From a virus: a stretch of DNA of 37,292 nt. This document shows positions 13,111-25,885 of this stretch, piece by piece. The DNA is taken from the IMG/VR virus record IMGVR_UViG_3300010391_000096, positions 1 through 37,292 of that record; one strand, written 5' to 3'. Within the stretch, counting starts at the first letter, position 1. The number at the start of each line of letters is the position of its first letter. The notes under the pieces were generated by a model that saw only the letters and a list, made by a program, of their open reading frames with translations, was not told the origin of the DNA and ran no database searches. Both the position numbers and the translations under genes were made by a program.

Positions 13111-13596
13111 ATGCCTCGATACATGAGGAAAAGCCCGCCATGGAACCAGGGTGCGTTCCAGCCTGTGGGGCGGAGGCTTGGTCCGAACGGCAGGTTGCAT
13201 GCGTTGCTCCTGCTGGACTTGATGCTGAGCAAGGACGCCAACAAGGCCCTGCTGCTGAAGGCACTTGAGAAGGAGTTCCGCGGTGACCCGGTCGCGTTCT
13301 TCAAGAGCATCATCATGCCTCTGCTGCCGCAGCGGGCAATGCAGAGGATTGACGAGCTCTACGAGGACGAGGCCCGGCAAGGCGGTGAGGTGGCCTTCAT
13401 GCTGAAAGCGAAGCGGCTCGTGGCGGATACCCTCAACGACATGGGTGAGGGCCGCATCGCTGAAGTGCTTTGCTCCGCCCTGGACCGCACCGCGGGGGCG
13501 GGCTCTGGCGGGGCGGGGCCGGTGGAGGTGGAACTTGTGGTGGGCGACCCCCGCCCGGACGAGGCGACTGTTCGAATCCGCAAGAGGAAGCCATGA
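13111..13596 (+). CDS. Putative terminase small subunit
   Basis: The 161-residue protein sits two genes before the large terminase subunit and right after a terminator, which is the usual place for the small subunit that recognises phage DNA for packaging. The N-terminus is basic (MPRYMRKSPPWNQGAFQPVG), followed by helices (LLLLDLMLSKDANKALLLKA, then DPVAFFKSIIMPLLPQ) and a variable tail. This resembles DUF5681-type packaging proteins only loosely, so the function is mainly from context. No ribosome site precedes ATG 13111 or ATG 13123; the gene may be read from a near-leaderless transcript, or start further in. Confidence 0.55.
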   Translation: MPRYMRKSPPWNQGAFQPVGRRLGPNGRLHALLLLDLMLSKDANKALLLKALEKEFRGDPVAFFKSIIMPLLPQRAMQRIDELYEDEARQGGEVAFMLKAKRLVADTLNDMGEGRIAEVLCSALDRTAGAGSGGAGPVEVELVVGDPRPDEATVRIRKRKP

Positions 13597-13787
13597 GGTG
13601 GCAGCGGAGTGAACTTGAAGAAATTGGTGTGTCGGCCCTCCAAGTATTGGCGGGCAGAAGTTACTATGCCGAGGTCAAGCGACTCCAAGCCGGACCCCTT
13701 GGCACTCGTTCCTGGGAGGCGATTCGAAAACAGTTGAGGGCGTGCGTGGCGGAGTTCAGGCACCTTGGCGTGCGGCGAGGTTCATGA
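13593..13787 (+). CDS. Small hypothetical protein coupled to terminase
   Basis: The 64-residue protein MRWQRSELEEIGVSALQVLA... is linked on both sides by ATGA overlaps, to the putative small subunit and to the large subunit. The in-frame extension upstream of 13593 lies inside the previous gene and is Gly/Pro low-complexity, so I start at 13593. It is predicted all-helical and basic at the end (EFRHLGVRRGS). Its position suggests a packaging accessory role, which is inference. Confidence 0.6.
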   Translation: MRWQRSELEEIGVSALQVLAGRSYYAEVKRLQAGPLGTRSWEAIRKQLRACVAEFRHLGVRRGS

Positions 13788-16018
13788 AGATCAAGATCCA
13801 CATCGAGAGGCTAAACCCCGCGGTGCGGGCGATGGCGATTGACGCCCGCCCCACGCTCGTGGTGGCCGCGGCCCCACTGCCCAGCGTGCGGGAGGGGCTG
13901 TTGGGCTGGTGGCTGAGTCGCGCACTGGGTACGTCCATTCCTCACCAGAACTTCATCTGGGTCGGCCCCCGCTGCGAGGCCATGCGAACCGCTGTGGAAG
14001 TCTGGCTCGCGGGAAGTCCGGTGGAGCTCATGCTCGGCACGAAGGCGGAACACCCGCACTCCCTGCGACACAACGATGCCCGCCTGTGGTTCCTGCGGCC
14101 CGAGCGGGCCTTTCAGCTGGAACCGGCGGGCGGGGTGGCCGATGCTGTGCTGGAGGACTGTGAGGCCACAGCGGACCCAAGCACATGGCTCGCCATGAAC
14201 GCTAAGGGCAACGTCCGCATGGTGGGGTCACAGCCATTGGATTCCAGGCATTGGTTTGCACAGGCCATCAACGCAGCACGTCAACTTTCTCCAGAAGACC
14301 CCAAGACCGGTTTCCACTTCATTGCCATCACCGACGATGTTCGTCATGGGCGGTTGACCCCGGAGCAAGCTGCGGCCCTCAAGGCCGGCGACCCAGACAG
14401 CTTCGGGCGGGTCTACCTCCTCCAGCAAACCGCGGCCCCGGTTGGTCCTGTGGACTCCGCCAGCCGTGGGCCGTCGGTTTTGACTTCCTTCAGCCGGTTT
14501 GCAAGGGAGCGTCTCTGGATTCGTCCGAAGCTCGGTCAACCCATCCAGTTTCGGGTCAACTCCGTTCAGAGGTATTATGAGGGAGCAAGGCGCCTGTCTC
14601 GGCAGCGGGGCCATCCCGCGAAGTACCTACTCCTGAAGTACCGCCGCGGGGGATTCACCACCTGGGAGCAGGGTCGCAACTACCAGACCATCTGCGAGGT
14701 GCCCTATTCTCAGGTGGTCACCCTGGCCCACACCGACGACGCGACGCAGCGAATCTTCCGCATTGCCCAGCTGTTCCATGAGAAGGATCCGCACGCCCCC
14801 GACCTGCGGGGCGTGGGCAACGCCCGTCGATTGGAGTTCATCCAGCAGCACTCCATGTTCTTCATTGGCACCGCGGGCTCGTCCGGCTTCGGCCGAGGCG
14901 ACACGCTTCAGCGGGTGCACGGCAGTGAGGTGGCCTGGTGGTGCCGCGGGCCGCATCAGGCCGATGACGTAGAGCAGTTGGTTGCCGGCTTGACCGAGGC
15001 CAGCAGTCACGGCGAGATCACCCTGGAGACGACGCCCAATGGGCTCGACTGGTTTGCCTCCATCTACAAGGAGGCGAAGGAGGGGCTGAACGACTGGACG
15101 CCGATCTTCCTCCCTTGGTTCTTTGATGAGACCAACACCCTGGCCCCGACGGAGTTCAATGCGGAGGAAGTTCTCGCAACACTGGCCGAGGACGAAAAGG
15201 CCCTGATTGAGCAGTACAACTTGACCACCGGTCAGGTCGCCTGGCGTCGGATGAAGCGCCGGGCGCTCAAGGGGCTGTTCAAACAAGAGTATCCTGAGGA
15301 CGACATCAGCTGCTTCCTGGCAACTGGCCATTGCTACTTCGACATCCAGATCATCTCCGCCCTGGTGGATGCATTGCAGTTGCGACCGGCCCCATTGGTC
15401 AGCCGACGGGACATCAAGAAGTCCGACTCGGGCCGGGCGGTGGAGCTCATGTGGGAACGCCCCGTCCCCGGCGAGCGGTACTGCCTGGGTGCCGACACCA
15501 GCGAGGGCAAGCCCGGTTGCGACCCGAACGGGCTGGTCGTTCTGAAGCGGAGCTCCGGAGTTCCGGTGTGCGACATCCACGGACTGATGGATCCGGCAAT
15601 GCTGGCGGACGAGTGCGTCCGGGTGCACCGACTGTACAACAACGCAATCATGGGCATCGAGGAGAACAACCACGGCCACGCTGTCCTCCAGCGGGTGCGG
15701 ACGGTGCATAACGTTCGTGAGTCTCGGTTCCTCTACCACCACGGCATTGGTAAGGCCCGCAAGCCGGGCTGGTCCACGGACGCGATCAGCCGTCCGATCA
15801 TGCTGGACGAGCTTTGCGAAGCAGTGGAAAGCGGAGCGGTGGAGGAACGTGACGTCGAGTTCCTTTCCGAGTGCTTGACGTTTCGAATGCAACGGAACGC
15901 GAAGTTTGGGGCTGACTCCGGGGCCCATGACGACCGAGTGATCAAGCGTGCGATCGCCTGGCAGATGCGGAAGGCCCGGGTGTCCGTGCCCGCCATGGGT
16001 GTTGCGGAGATGCTGTGA
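13784..16018 (+). CDS. terL: Terminase large subunit with extra N-terminal ATPase-like region
   Basis: This is the motor that pumps DNA into the prohead and cuts it. Of 744 residues, the standard terminase begins near residue 255 (IQFRVNSVQRYY). Its P-loop region LLLKYRRGGFTTW (282-294) is an unusual Walker A, and VHGSEVAWW (from 378, E382) is the Walker B. The nuclease domain shows D571 (GADTSEG), E626 (GIEENN) and D716-D717 (AHDDRV), the RNase H-like acidic set. Residues 1-250 are extra. NFIWVGPRCEAMRTAVEVWL, then KGNVRMVGSQPLDSRHWFAQ and SFGRVYLLQQ follow the order of a terminase ATPase without a P-loop, as if a decayed second copy were fused on. The start at 13784 overlaps the preceding stop. 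Confidence 0.9.
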   Translation: MKIKIHIERLNPAVRAMAIDARPTLVVAAAPLPSVREGLLGWWLSRALGTSIPHQNFIWVGPRCEAMRTAVEVWLAGSPVELMLGTKAEHPHSLRHNDARLWFLRPERAFQLEPAGGVADAVLEDCEATADPSTWLAMNAKGNVRMVGSQPLDSRHWFAQAINAARQLSPEDPKTGFHFIAITDDVRHGRLTPEQAAALKAGDPDSFGRVYLLQQTAAPVGPVDSASRGPSVLTSFSRFARERLWIRPKLGQPIQFRVNSVQRYYEGARRLSRQRGHPAKYLLLKYRRGGFTTWEQGRNYQTICEVPYSQVVTLAHTDDATQRIFRIAQLFHEKDPHAPDLRGVGNARRLEFIQQHSMFFIGTAGSSGFGRGDTLQRVHGSEVAWWCRGPHQADDVEQLVAGLTEASSHGEITLETTPNGLDWFASIYKEAKEGLNDWTPIFLPWFFDETNTLAPTEFNAEEVLATLAEDEKALIEQYNLTTGQVAWRRMKRRALKGLFKQEYPEDDISCFLATGHCYFDIQIISALVDALQLRPAPLVSRRDIKKSDSGRAVELMWERPVPGERYCLGADTSEGKPGCDPNGLVVLKRSSGVPVCDIHGLMDPAMLADECVRVHRLYNNAIMGIEENNHGHAVLQRVRTVHNVRESRFLYHHGIGKARKPGWSTDAISRPIMLDELCEAVESGAVEERDVEFLSECLTFRMQRNAKFGADSGAHDDRVIKRAIAWQMRKARVSVPAMGVAEML

Positions 16019-18299: not shown

Positions 18300-18530
18300 A
18301 TGAAGTCCCATTCCCAAGTCGAAGGCCCCTCCGGCACCGCTCCCCGCCCGCGGCGACACCGGCCCCCGTCGGTGGTTCCAATGGCCCCGGCGAGTGCGAC
18401 CGCGACCGCGGCAGCGGCGGTGCAGACCAACCCCACACAGACCATCCAACCCCAGAAACGCTCGCTCTTCCAGACGTTGCTCGGTGAGATGATCGCGGAC
18501 GGTGAGATCACCTTCGTGGATCCCAGATAA
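18300..18530 (+). CDS. Small hypothetical protein
   Basis: The 76-residue protein starts at ATG 18300, five bases after AAGGAG. The first 55 residues are disordered-looking Pro/Ala/Thr (PSGTAPRPRRHRPPSVVPMA). The end (RSLFQTLLGEMIADGEITFV) looks like a short helix that could be a peptide ligand. Its stop overlaps the portal start by one base (TAATG), so it is coupled to portal translation; a scaffold- or portal-associated role is a guess. Confidence 0.6.
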   Translation: MKSHSQVEGPSGTAPRPRRHRPPSVVPMAPASATATAAAAVQTNPTQTIQPQKRSLFQTLLGEMIADGEITFVDPR

Positions 18531-20920
18531 TGGTGACTCAAAACGACATCCTGGACGCTTACGGCCGGCCGGCCCGCTTGGGACTGCCGTCCCGCGGGAC
18601 CAGCGACAACGGAAACGGCAAGGTCATTAGCAAGGCCTACGCCAATTTCGTGAGCGCGGTCTTCGGGGTGTCGGCGGACCCGGTGTTCCGGGCGACCGAG
18701 CCGTTTGAGAATCATGCCTGGGTTTATGCCTGTGCCATGGCGATCGCGACGAACCTGGCCCAAGCCCCGTTCCAGATCATGCGGGAGACGGAGAAGGCCT
18801 CACAAGTCCGCGTGACACGCATGAAGGCCCTGGGTCGTCCCTGGGTTGGACCCCCGGCCGGTCGCGGCCGGCGGGCGGTGGAGCGCCACATGACCCGTGC
18901 GGCCAACCCCATGCGATTCCGTGGACTCCGATCGAAGGCACTTGAGCTCGACGAGACGCACCCTCTGATGAACGTCTTCAAACGACCCAACCCCCTGATG
19001 TCGCAGGGTCAGCTGTGGCAGGGAACCTCCCTCTGGCAGACGATGCGGGGTCAGTGCTTCTGGATCCTGCTCTCGGAGGAGGGGAAGCGGATCGCCCCCG
19101 GTGACATTCCCGGCCAGATCTGGCTGGGCAACCCGGACCTCATCGAACCACTGTACAAGGAGAACCGGCTCGTGGCCTGGGACTACAGGGTGCCCCGCGG
19201 GGCCGGTTACTTCCGGGAAGGGGAACGGGTCTCCCTGCTGCCCCATGAGGTGATCCGGTTCTACCTGCTCCATCCGAGCGACCCGGCCCGTGCGATCAGC
19301 CCCCTGACCGCCGCAGCCATGGGCATTACCATGGACATGTTGGCGGGGGCACACAACAAAGCGGTGCTGGAGAACGGGGCCGACCCCGGCGGGATCCTGA
19401 TGCACAAGGAGGGCTATGACGAGGAGGAGGTTCAGAAGCAGGTTAAGCAGTTTGAGCAGCGGCACAAGGGGACTCAGAACCGCCGCAAGATCGGCTGGCT
19501 GACGGGCGGGTGGGAGTACGTGCCGACCGGCATGACGCCCGAGGACATGGAATGGTTCGAACAACGCCAGTGGGACCGGGATGAAGTGTTGGCGGTGACC
19601 CGCACCCCGAAGTCGATTCTCTCCATCACGGACGGGCTCAACTACGCAACGCAACTGAGCCAGGACTGGAACTTCTGGGACAAGAACCTCCTGCCCCAAA
19701 TCAGGTACTTCGAGGACGTCCTGGACGGGACGCTCTTTTTCACTGAGACCGACAATGTGATGGGGATGTTCGATCTGTCCGGGGTTGATGCACTGCGACA
19801 GGGCTTGAGCGAGGCCACGACCCTGGCCAAATCCCTGGCCGGCTCGGAACTGCACGTCCCACCGCGACAAGCAATGGAGATGGCGGGGCTGGAGGTCGAG
19901 CCCTACGAGGGCGATGACGTCGTCCTGGTTTCCGCTGGGTTGATGACCCTGGACGCTGTGCTGAATCCGCCGGAACCTGAGCCGCTGCCGCTGCCGCTGC
20001 CGCTGCCTGCGGTGCCCCCGCCCGGCGAGGAAGAGCTCCCGCCCGGCCTTCCGGCCTCGCGCACGCCCGCGGCCGGGAAGCCCACCCCGCCCGAGCCGTT
20101 GCCTCCGCCCGCGATGAAGGCCGCACGTGCGGCGAGTGCGAAGCGCCGCTGGAACGCCATCATCGCGAAGGTGCAGCTGCCGGCGGAACAGGCCTTCATG
20201 CAGGCCTGGCGGGCTTGGGTTCTGAAGGAGCAGCAGGAGAACCTCCGGCTCTTCGACGCGGTCGTGGCGGAGCAGCACCTGAAGTTCTGGCAACCGCTGA
20301 ACAAGGCCCTCAAGGCGGAGGCCTTCCTCCCCGACTTGGAGGCATACAGGAAGCGACTTCAGCGGCGAGTGAACCCAGTGTACGCTCAGGAGCTCGCGGG
20401 CGTTTACGAGTACACCGTAGCGGAACTCGCTGGCATGGCGGTGTTCGCACTGGACGACCCCATGATCCAGGCCGCGATCACCCGCCGCGAGAAATTCCTG
20501 GTAGGCAAGGCCCCAGCCTCTCTCCAGAAGATGCTCCGCACCTCCTTGAGCAAGGGACTCGATGCCAACGAGTCCATGGCTGAGTTGCGAGCTCGGGTGT
20601 CCCAGGCCTACCAGTACGCCGCGAGTTCCGCGAAGACGCTCCAGGTCGCCCGCACGGAGTCGGCCGGCTTCATGAACGAGGCCCGCGAGGCGATGTTCAC
20701 CGCGCAGGGTTTCGAGCGGGGTGAGTGGCTCTCCGCCGTGGATGAGCACTCCCGCGTGAACCACCTGCTTTACGGTGGGGCCGGGCCGCAAAAGCGAGGG
20801 TTCAACTACCTGACCCTTTCCGGCAACGTGGACGCGGGTGAGCTGAAATATCCGAATGACATGGACTGCACCGACGCGGGTGAGGTTGTAAACTGTCGCT
20901 GCGTCATGATCCCGGTTTAA
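18530..20920 (+). CDS. Portal protein fused to MuF-like head morphogenesis domain
   Basis: This 796-residue fusion begins with an HK97-family portal, the ring through which DNA enters. Signs are HPLMNVFKRPNPLMSQGQLW, the 'G..D.IEPLY' region, LPHEVIRFYLLHPSDPARAI and a C-terminal wing with DEVLAVTRTPKSIL. Residues 480-530 are a Pro-rich linker (PEPEPLPLPLPLPAVPPP) encoded by repeated CCGCTG units. From about 540 comes a MuF-type minor head domain: ARTESAGFMNEAREAMFTAQ, then GEWLSAVDEHSRVNHLL and the closing VNCRCVMIPV. Portal and MuF are more often separate adjacent genes. No clear ribosome site precedes the ATG; it is coupled to the upstream stop. Confidence 0.93.
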   Translation: MVTQNDILDAYGRPARLGLPSRGTSDNGNGKVISKAYANFVSAVFGVSADPVFRATEPFENHAWVYACAMAIATNLAQAPFQIMRETEKASQVRVTRMKALGRPWVGPPAGRGRRAVERHMTRAANPMRFRGLRSKALELDETHPLMNVFKRPNPLMSQGQLWQGTSLWQTMRGQCFWILLSEEGKRIAPGDIPGQIWLGNPDLIEPLYKENRLVAWDYRVPRGAGYFREGERVSLLPHEVIRFYLLHPSDPARAISPLTAAAMGITMDMLAGAHNKAVLENGADPGGILMHKEGYDEEEVQKQVKQFEQRHKGTQNRRKIGWLTGGWEYVPTGMTPEDMEWFEQRQWDRDEVLAVTRTPKSILSITDGLNYATQLSQDWNFWDKNLLPQIRYFEDVLDGTLFFTETDNVMGMFDLSGVDALRQGLSEATTLAKSLAGSELHVPPRQAMEMAGLEVEPYEGDDVVLVSAGLMTLDAVLNPPEPEPLPLPLPLPAVPPPGEEELPPGLPASRTPAAGKPTPPEPLPPPAMKAARAASAKRRWNAIIAKVQLPAEQAFMQAWRAWVLKEQQENLRLFDAVVAEQHLKFWQPLNKALKAEAFLPDLEAYRKRLQRRVNPVYAQELAGVYEYTVAELAGMAVFALDDPMIQAAITRREKFLVGKAPASLQKMLRTSLSKGLDANESMAELRARVSQAYQYAASSAKTLQVARTESAGFMNEAREAMFTAQGFERGEWLSAVDEHSRVNHLLYGGAGPQKRGFNYLTLSGNVDAGELKYPNDMDCTDAGEVVNCRCVMIPV

Positions 20921-21427: not shown

Positions 21428-22666
21428 ATGTCGGTGTTCAATGCCATCCTGTCCGCGGTTGACGAGGTGCCTCCTCCGGTTACTGATGCGCCGGAGGAGG
21501 CCCTCTTCCCGTACAGCCTGCGGGAGTTCGAGTTTTACAACCTCGATGCGGGGTCGTCCCGCTCGGCAGTGGTGAGAGGCAAATCCACCAACGTTTTCGA
21601 CGCCATCCTGAAGTTCAACCCGTACTGGGGTGATCAGCCGCGGGACGAGCAGGGCCGTTGGGCCTTCGACGGGGCGGGCGCGGGCGCGACCCCCGCGGGC
21701 ACCGCCGACCCCTCCGCCGACGATCCTTTCCCTCCAGAAAAACCAGCTGAGCCGACTGACCCCGTTGACCGGAAGATGCTTCAGGTAGAGCGGGCGGTTG
21801 CTCAAGTTGATGCCATCATCCAAAAGGCAACTGAAGCCTCCAAGGCACTTCTGGATTCATTCCAACCCCTACAAACCCAGAGAGATGAACTCTGGGAAAA
21901 ACAATTCGAGACTGTCAATAAGCTGACTGCAGCCAAGGAAGCTGGTGCCTCCCCTGAGGCAATCGCTGTCCTTCAGCAAGAATACACAGCCCGAGAGGCT
22001 GAGCTCAAAAAAATCACTGCGGAACTCGAGCCGCAATGGGAAGCCTATTCTAGAGCTAAAGAAGCAGAGAGTGCTGCTACCGAAGAAGGCAACCGCATGA
22101 TTCAGAATGCGCTTGCTGCCGACCCTTCCAGTAATCGGGGCCTGGGGGGGTCGTTCGGAAAAGAGTTGAAGCATGGCTCAGAAGCGGTGGCGTTCTTCAA
22201 TAAGGTAAATGGTTCTGATTTCTTGCGAGAGGGCAACTTCTCGGTCGGCCAATCAACGAAGAGCGAACGAGAATACTTCTCGAACGGGGCCATTTACCTG
22301 AGGAGTGTCACTTCAGCTTCGGTAATTGTTCATGAGATGGGTCACGTGCTTGAGCATTCCGATAGGGACGTCAGCCAAGAATGCCAAAGTTTTCTGGCTC
22401 GTCGGACACAGGGACTGAAGCCCGAGTCCCTGAATGCAATCAAAGGCTTGAAGGGTCGGAGTAAGGCTTTTTCTGATGATGAGGTTGGGATTAAGGATGG
22501 CTTCCGTGATCCCTATGTTGGCAAGATCTACCGCCATGAAGCAACAGAAGTGTTGTCCATGGGACTCCAATGGCTCCAACAAGAGCCCCTCCGTTTTTTC
22601 AAGGAAGACCCCGACCACTTTAAGTTTACGGTGCGGATACTGAACATGAAGAAGGGGAACAAATGA
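21428..22666 (+). CDS. HExxH zinc metallopeptidase cargo protein with capsid-linked N-terminus
   Basis: The 412-residue protein has three parts. Residues 1-80 are GC-rich and end in RDEQGRW (72-78) followed by a Gly/Ala linker. Residues 110-230 are a coiled coil (QREELW-type heptads such as AIAVLQQEYTAREAELKKI). The C-terminal domain holds VIVHEMGHVLEHSD, with zinc ligands H302 and H306 and catalytic E303. A later RHEATEVLSMG (E371 or E374) may supply the third ligand. This is a zincin peptidase of the type found as variable domains near phage capsid genes and thought to be injected or to process proteins. DNA after the linker is much poorer in GC (28/60 in two sample lines), pointing to acquisition. 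The stop overlaps the next gene. Confidence 0.8.
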   Translation: MSVFNAILSAVDEVPPPVTDAPEEALFPYSLREFEFYNLDAGSSRSAVVRGKSTNVFDAILKFNPYWGDQPRDEQGRWAFDGAGAGATPAGTADPSADDPFPPEKPAEPTDPVDRKMLQVERAVAQVDAIIQKATEASKALLDSFQPLQTQRDELWEKQFETVNKLTAAKEAGASPEAIAVLQQEYTAREAELKKITAELEPQWEAYSRAKEAESAATEEGNRMIQNALAADPSSNRGLGGSFGKELKHGSEAVAFFNKVNGSDFLREGNFSVGQSTKSEREYFSNGAIYLRSVTSASVIVHEMGHVLEHSDRDVSQECQSFLARRTQGLKPESLNAIKGLKGRSKAFSDDEVGIKDGFRDPYVGKIYRHEATEVLSMGLQWLQQEPLRFFKEDPDHFKFTVRILNMKKGNK

Positions 22667-24523: not shown

Positions 24524-25885
24524 ATGCCAGTTGACCCGAAAGACGGTGCCATGGAGAAGGAAGCCGTGAAGAGGCTTCTGGAGAACGTGGAGATCATGTC
24601 CAAGGGCTTGCCCGAGATCCGCGAGGAGCTCAAGGCCCTGCAGGCGAAGGTCAAGGAGTTCGCCGACCTCGACGTGAGCAAGGCGCTGAAGGAATTCGAG
24701 CGGACGAAGGCCTCCATGGAGCAGGTCCGGGAGGCGATCCGCAGCAGCAAGGGCGGGTTCTACATCCCCGGCTTGGAGGACGCGGGCAAGAAGTTCAGTC
24801 TGACCCGCGCGTTCATCGGGGCGAAGACCGGTGACTGGAAGGGTGCCGAACACGAGAAGGAGATCTTCGACCAGGTCCGGTCGAAGGCCTCGCACATCAT
24901 CGGCAACGACAGCGCGGCCGGGCTCTTCATCCCGGACCAGGTGATCCCCGACGTGATTGCCGCGATCTACACCCGCAGCCAGCTGATCGACCTGGCCGGC
25001 GACGGCCGGACCCGCGTCAGCGTGCTGGACGGGCTGACCGGCATCCCCGCCAAGCTCCCGAAGTTCAACGGGGGCGTCATCGCCTACTGGCTGGGTGAGG
25101 AGGACGAGTACGTCGAGTCCCTGGTCAACGTCGGCAACATGTCGCTGACGCCCAAGAAGCTCGGTATCCTGGTCCGGCTCACCGACGAGATGCGTCGCTT
25201 CCAGTCCTTCGGCTTCGAGAACCTCCTGCGGGCGGACATGACCCGCGCGGCCGCGAAGAAGATCGACTGGACCGTGCTCTACGGGAGCGGCTCGGAGAAT
25301 ATGCCCCGTGGCGTGGTCAACTGGCCGGGCGTTGGGGTCTACTCCGCCGAGAACGGAACCAGCACTCAGCCGGCCAGCCCGGCGGGTGCGGCCCTGGACT
25401 TCGACGGGCTGGACAACATGGCCGGCATCCTGGAGGACGCTGACATCGACGCCGACTCCAGCTTCGCGACCATCTCGTGCCCGAGGTTCTTCCGCCGGAT
25501 GCGTCAGCTGAAGACGGACAACTACAGCGGGCAGACCACCAACCGGCCGTACCTCATCGGGGTACCGATGCTGCCGGAGGCCCGGCTGCGCGACGTCATC
25601 GGCGAATTCGGCAAGAGCACCCAGCTGCCCACCACCAACAAGCCCGGCGCTTCGGTGGCCTGGACCAGCCCGCAGGACGTGCAGAAGTGCACGGACGTCT
25701 TCCAGGGTAACTGGGCGAACGTGCTCTTCGGTCGGTGGTCCGGCCTGGAGATCGCGGACGACGGCGGGCTCGGCAAGGGCTTCACCTCCGACCACACCTA
25801 CATCAAGGTACGGATGTACTCGGACGTCGGTTGCCGGTACGAGCAGTCGATCGTCATCTGCCCCGACGCCAAGGTCCGCGACTGA
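24524..25885 (+). CDS. Major capsid protein (HK97 fold)
   Basis: The 453-residue protein builds the head shell. The first 100 residues are a charged coiled coil (LPEIREELKALQAKVKEFAD), the HK97 delta/scaffolding domain normally removed by the prohead protease encoded just upstream. The mature part begins around IIGNDSAAGLFIPDQVIPDV. It contains MSLTPKKLGILVRLTDEMRR, the conserved 'P.k.....vtdEll' segment; the E-loop/P-domain region; and VLYGSGSENMPRGV followed by the usual 'G.PqGi..w' turn. The position after protease and before connector genes agrees. AGGAG lies eight bases before the ATG, and a short hairpin (CGGGCA/TGCCCG, 24473-24486) sits in the leader. Confidence 0.93.
   Translation: MPVDPKDGAMEKEAVKRLLENVEIMSKGLPEIREELKALQAKVKEFADLDVSKALKEFERTKASMEQVREAIRSSKGGFYIPGLEDAGKKFSLTRAFIGAKTGDWKGAEHEKEIFDQVRSKASHIIGNDSAAGLFIPDQVIPDVIAAIYTRSQLIDLAGDGRTRVSVLDGLTGIPAKLPKFNGGVIAYWLGEEDEYVESLVNVGNMSLTPKKLGILVRLTDEMRRFQSFGFENLLRADMTRAAAKKIDWTVLYGSGSENMPRGVVNWPGVGVYSAENGTSTQPASPAGAALDFDGLDNMAGILEDADIDADSSFATISCPRFFRRMRQLKTDNYSGQTTNRPYLIGVPMLPEARLRDVIGEFGKSTQLPTTNKPGASVAWTSPQDVQKCTDVFQGNWANVLFGRWSGLEIADDGGLGKGFTSDHTYIKVRMYSDVGCRYEQSIVICPDAKVRD

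Follow-up and report, generated by a model that had tools for sequence, protein, structure and literature searches.

The ORF at 13784-16018 (+ strand) of the viral genome analysed here encodes a complete large terminase (TerL) that carries an extra 235-residue domain at its N-terminus. The enzyme itself is known, but this arrangement of domains is new. This added part, residues 1-235 (hereafter the N-domain), is very likely a second TerL ATPase-fold domain, dead but conserved, placed ahead of a normal, complete TerL. Throughout, "the window" refers to the whole 37,292-nt stretch of IMGVR_UViG_3300010391_000096.

Domain layout of the terminase

The reading frame is open from an ATG at 13784, which overlaps the end of the preceding ORF, to a stop at 16018, and encodes 744 amino acids. 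Homology to public phage terminases is restricted to residues ~230-738 and sets in at residue ~230-251, and the added part is therefore about 235 residues long; the matches to PHROG_2 and PHROG_24361 cover residues 270-735. The original prediction had placed the start of a full terminase, ATPase plus nuclease, near residue 255. The full terminase is present, but the start was misplaced, the added part being slightly shorter than proposed. The layout of the region, all on the + strand, is as follows:

13111-13596, +: 161-aa ORF without a family match, upstream of terL at the position of the small terminase
13784-14488, +: N-domain (residues 1-235), predicted non-catalytic TerL ATPase fold (AlphaFold2, Foldseek, VIA, HMM family, profile match to phiCD27-type terminases)
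14489-15298, +: active TerL ATPase domain, residues 236-505 (PHROG_2, PHROG_24361; VIA Z 18.6 to the P74-26 ATPase over residues 233-514)
14636-14662, +: Walker A of the active ATPase, K285-YRRGGFTT, K285 invariant (alignment of 20 proteins)
14918-14929, +: Walker B end of the active ATPase, HGSE, H379 and E382 invariant (alignment of 20 proteins)
15326-15988, +: TerL nuclease domain, residues ~515-735 (VIA Z 21.6 to the G20c TerL nuclease, 2.4 Å, 181 residues)

The core (residues 236-744) has the hallmarks of a TerL, i.e. an ATPase domain with Walker A and Walker B, an RNase H-fold nuclease with its acidic residues, and a location in the vicinity of the portal and capsid genes. Across the 20 aligned proteins, the core residues K285, T292, H379 and E382 show no variation, and neither do D571, D716 and D717 of the nuclease. 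In the full-length model, the core compares with TerL ATPases at VIA Z scores of 18.6-19.2, and TerL nucleases align to residues 515-730 with Z up to 21.6. Phage_portal (18530-20920) and Phage_capsid (24524-25885) genes both lie downstream of terL.

Several observations were made in passing on the same neighbourhood and on related terminases. The portal protein of the window (PF04860, E 2.6e-45) has a C-terminal extension that matches head-morphogenesis/Mu F-like proteins, and a 412-aa protein encoded among the capsid genes (21428-22666) contains an HEMGH motif and weakly matches a zinc metallopeptidase family. In three Bacteroides phage records (PQ571263, PQ571269 and PQ571277), TerL homologues are labelled ‘tail spike protein’, probably a mis-annotation. 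Finally, the TerL at L006:4903-8520, on a contig common to L047, L085 and L182, is interrupted by an intein-like insertion of ~300 aa, which begins with CLDGGERV, ends with VHN before a Cys, and is located directly ahead of the conserved CFLTSG between ATPase and nuclease.

The N-domain defines a family fused to TerL

None of the Pfam or PHROG families matches residues 1-235. Single-sequence searches that took the N-domain of the window as query returned nothing, and an alignment scan using the N-domain alone gave no confirmed locus. Matches to Listeria and Pseudomonas obtained by tblastn had E values of 2-6 and were discarded as chance. The family was uncovered solely by scanning viral contigs for the TerL core and then reading upstream of it. 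An HMM built from 16 N-domains detects the domain fused to TerL in 21 non-identical proteins including that of the window, with E values from 5.9e-17 to 1e-76, and in all 20 non-identical relatives listed the homologous domain is joined to TerL at the identical place. The carriers, which include some near-identical copies, are L002-L004, L006, L037-L044, L046, L061, L063, L068, L069, L080, L145, L157, L160 and L165. The HMM found no N-domain as a separate gene in the loci examined, and a scan of genome contigs yielded solely distant TerLs without an N-domain. In the first alignment, N-domains are 13-23% identical to that of the window, the pairwise comparison with L145 giving 32% over 156 residues (E 7e-17). 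For the TerL cores of carriers, identity is mostly 40-51%; the N-domain is missing from the more remote TerLs, which fall under ~40%.

The N-domain is truly coding, as judged from its G+C content by codon position (0.68/0.51/0.77, similar to that of the core) and from the homologues at the same place. Non-coding sequence translated ahead of the true terL start would produce an artefactual extension, and an internal start is usable in principle, with TTG and GTG codons near the junction. However, the window and 10 of 16 relatives have no Met in the 40 residues that precede the core, the homologous extensions are in frame in 20 non-identical viral contigs, and their codon-position composition is gene-like and their selection purifying; we give an artefact next to no chance of being the explanation.

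Selection was examined in pairs of carriers. N-domain dN/dS is 0.056/0.404 for L002/L003 (about 0.14, near the core value), 0.258/0.933 for L038/L039, 0.464/1.684 for L037/L041 and 0.653/1.645 for L038/L069. Over the pairs with dS below 1.7, the ratio is about 0.14-0.40 in the N-domain and 0.08-0.19 in the core, and at the protein level the N-domain changes about twice as fast. Thus, it is under purifying selection and evolves faster than the core, but is not in free drift.

Upstream of terL, many carriers encode, at the small-terminase position, a protein with a CxxxC...H zinc-finger-like N-terminus (HPRRCQ...), as in L037:4361-4990, L068:4141-4824, L038:2970-3656 and L063:4623-5318. In L037 and L068, this protein belongs to PHROG_3678, a family of unknown function. 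Two carriers, L046 and L061, have HTH-like ORFs upstream, with a match to TerS only in L046, and a weak one (E 0.005). These ORFs speak neither for nor against a replacement of TerS, which was considered.

Predicted fold of the N-domain

Residues 1-235 are predicted to adopt an ASCE P-loop fold with TerL topology. The AlphaFold2 model of the N-domain, computed from 16 sequences, is of moderate confidence (pLDDT 70.8, pTM 0.69), with pLDDT values of 83-91 across most of residues 41-160. In a Foldseek search of the PDB with this model, ranks 1-13 are all TerL (T4 gp17 at 4.7e-5 and HK97 at 9.5e-5, also D6E and P74-26). In VIA, 194 residues align at 3.8 Å and Z 14.7 to 7ks4, the P74-26 TerL ATPase, the first 19 rows being TerL, and the best BFVD matches that carry a name are for the most part terminases. 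A fold unrelated to P-loop ATPases, the outcome that the original prediction had named as fatal to it, is thus not what the models give: the best solved matches are all TerL ATPases.

The two halves were also compared with each other, as the prediction had proposed. In the full-length model (pLDDT 78.6), residues 24-211 and again residues 280-495 follow the same order, strand-helix-strand-helix-strand-strand-strand-helix-strand-helix-strand with three end helices, and 7ks4 aligns a second time on residues 233-514 (Z 18.6), so that both halves align to P74-26 TerL ATPase structures. The pTM of this model is 0.48, and the mutual placement of the domains is therefore not fixed by it. Alignments of tandem RecA helicase-like proteins to it have rmsd values of 13-19 Å and therefore carry no information on domain orientation.

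The N-domain might instead be a RecA/DEAD-helicase-like P-loop domain of non-terminase descent, since eIF4A-type DEAD domains align to it with VIA Z scores of 11-12. These scores are ~2.5 Z below that of TerL (14.7), a lower rank that is compatible with relatedness; against a helicase descent stand the first 19 VIA rows and the best 13 Foldseek matches, which are all TerL, the sequence profiles, which match TerL, and the location of the domain within a terminase fusion. We regard such a descent as very unlikely.

Loss of the catalytic motifs

Three positions in the N-domain correspond to the catalytic motifs of a TerL ATPase:

13868-13891, +: position of the lost Walker A, residues 29-36, AAPLPSVR, mostly HAxLDCR in relatives (alignment)
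14135-14164, +: Walker B strand, residues 118-127, ending in ED-C, with Cys126 at the position of the catalytic Glu (AlphaFold2, alignment)
14249-14257, +: His-Trp-Phe at the motif III position, HW invariant in 20/20 aligned N-domains (alignment)

The Walker A Lys and its GK[ST] signature are absent from 20/20 aligned N-domains and from the related domain of L079 described below. The Walker B Glu is replaced in all 20 aligned N-domains (by C, A, G, S etc.), the position after the Walker B Asp never being Glu. LDCR and FPDQ are conserved in most N-domains. These results bear out the order of segments read originally from the sequence, with IWVGP as strand 2, VLEDC as the Walker B strand and GSQP..HWF at the motif III position, as well as the reported lack of a Walker A in the N-terminal region. 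The description as a dead motor domain also holds: within a predicted TerL ATPase fold, every copy lacks the Walker A Lys and no aligned copy retains the Walker B Glu.

The TerL of HK97, when mutated at either the Walker A Lys or the Walker B Glu, neither hydrolyses ATP nor packages DNA (PMC9410871). Because HK97 TerL loses its ATPase activity without these residues, the N-domain, judged by its sequence, is very probably catalytically inert. We considered, and rejected, a zinc site that would be formed by the conserved His and Cys of HAxLDCR together with the Walker B Cys and HW: the residues are not co-conserved, and the window has neither the first His nor the Cys. The charge of the N-domain is near neutral or variable, ranging from -7 to +10, so there is no simple DNA-grip signature.

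The loss of the catalytic motifs, together with protein-level evolution at about twice the core rate and the lack of the N-domain in one sub-branch of the clade, could suggest a relic, i.e. a dead domain in decay, fused to TerL but functionless. This is improbable given the purifying selection (dN/dS 0.14 in L002/L003, near the core), the intact frame kept in 20 non-identical divergent relatives, the invariant His-Trp and the mostly conserved LDCR motif.

Origin of the N-domain

A profile of 20 N-domains scores 35.7 against five phiCD27-type TerL ATPases, 12 SD above column shuffles (12.3 +/- 1.9; P 1.5e-4). Against the ATPase of its own core, the score is 24.0, with shuffles at 13.1 +/- 2.0 (P 0.012), and thus the profile-profile comparison of the two halves, suggested at the outset, comes out above shuffles. 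With 16 sequences, the P-values are 0.0049 for the phiCD27-type TerL and 0.032 for the own core. The N-domain thus appears to have sequence-profile homology to TerL ATPases, with an hhalign probability against phiCD27-type TerL of just about 52%, and therefore sequence by itself would not decide its homology.

Two members of the same TerL clade, L079 and L078, have a longer N-terminal domain. In tblastn, that of L079 finds its matches among terminases, those of phiCD27 and phiEf11 included (best E 2e-6); aligned to phiCD27-type terminases, it reads NFVGST instead of GQGVGKT at Walker A and DAAD instead of DEAS at Walker B. It is a decayed TerL ATPase at an earlier stage, whether it stems from the fusion seen in the window family or from a second, parallel event. 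Compared by hhalign with the L079 domain alone, the window family has nil similarity to it, so L079 could be an independent fusion. Just upstream of terL in L079 (L079:3832-4689), a 285-aa protein consists of repeated ‘xxxIGVTEt’ units.

In a tree of the TerL core, a single clade with 29 members (support 100/99) contains every carrier, along with one group of 7 without the N-domain (L066, L067, L073, L074, L076, L151 and L158; support 90/88). A single carrier clade is not rejected by the AU test (p 0.127). One gain plus one loss matches this tree, which gives no order for the deepest forks of the clade.

Internal duplication and fusion had both been put forward as the source of the N-domain. 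As a decayed copy of this TerL's own ATPase, it would be expected to have the fold and element order common to both halves and a profile score above shuffles between them, as observed. However, its profile lies clearly nearer to the ATPases of phiCD27-type TerLs than to that of its own core, and the less decayed L079 version matches foreign terminases. Of the two origins, a fusion with the ATPase of another TerL is slightly the better fit; the profile comparison is not decisive on origin because alignment depth differs between the profiles. Overall, we consider a duplication possible but not likely. By fusion, the N-domain would most likely have been acquired once, in the ancestor of this phage group, from the ATPase half of another TerL resembling the phiCD27 ‘terminase B’; it would then have lost its catalytic residues, stayed under selection and disappeared in one sub-branch.

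Discussion

Published descriptions of TerL give a single ATPase domain and, after it, a single nuclease (PMC9855967, PMC7824862). The TerL of the window resembles those of T4 (gp17), HK97, D6E and P74-26 in its ATPase core and RNase H-type nuclease with invariant catalytic residues, but differs in having a second, apparently catalytically empty TerL ATPase in front. The closest sequence relatives found, both for the N-domain family and for the L079 N-domain, are the ‘terminase B’ TerL ATPases of phiCD27 and phiEf11, which look active with GQGVGKT and DEAS, whereas the N-domains have lost both. The packaging ATPase gp16 of phi29 keeps a vestigial, inactive nuclease domain (PMC9410871) and is thus alike in having a vestigial domain within a packaging enzyme, but there it is the nuclease and here an additional ATPase. 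Literature searches, which covered papers available without subscription, turned up no TerL described as having two ATPase domains or an inactive one.

What might an inert domain do in a packaging motor? The N-domain would provide an ASCE P-loop core and lid-like helices without nucleotide chemistry. Because related phages keep the dead domain under selection, a structural or regulatory part in packaging is probable. In the TerL ring at the portal, every subunit would contribute two ATPase domains, of which one works and the other is inert; the inert ones could form a fixed collar or docking platform holding DNA, the small terminase or neighbouring subunits, and would tune the working ring while burning no ATP. 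A dead ATPase with lid-like helices keeps the surfaces of a ring subunit, and we therefore favour an inert collar or platform over an adaptor, and an adaptor over a direct pseudo-subunit. A structural or regulatory collar is our tentative first choice. An adaptor to TerS, DNA or the portal is less likely, and a pseudo-subunit acting directly on its own active site, by analogy with the P-loop-less RecA2 of SF1/SF2 helicases, somewhat less so again; that the domain has no function seems unlikely. We also consider it rather doubtful, if conceivable, that the motor consists of two stacked rings made from one polypeptide, in which an inert TerL-ATPase ring would grip or gate DNA or set the firing order. 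In AAA+ double-ring motors, and in SF1/SF2 helicases whose RecA2 lacks the P-loop, a dead nucleotide-fold domain and a live one likewise form a tandem. They offer an analogy of working principle, their families being different from that of the window TerL, which is known here from sequence and models.

TerL diversity in viral metagenomes includes architectures absent from the families searched, as no Pfam or PHROG model matched the N-domain. Few molecular motors match TerL rings in strength, and how the TerL subunits are coordinated is a matter of debate. With one dead and one live ATPase per chain, the terminases described here would constitute a natural test of whether non-firing domains grip, gate or pace.
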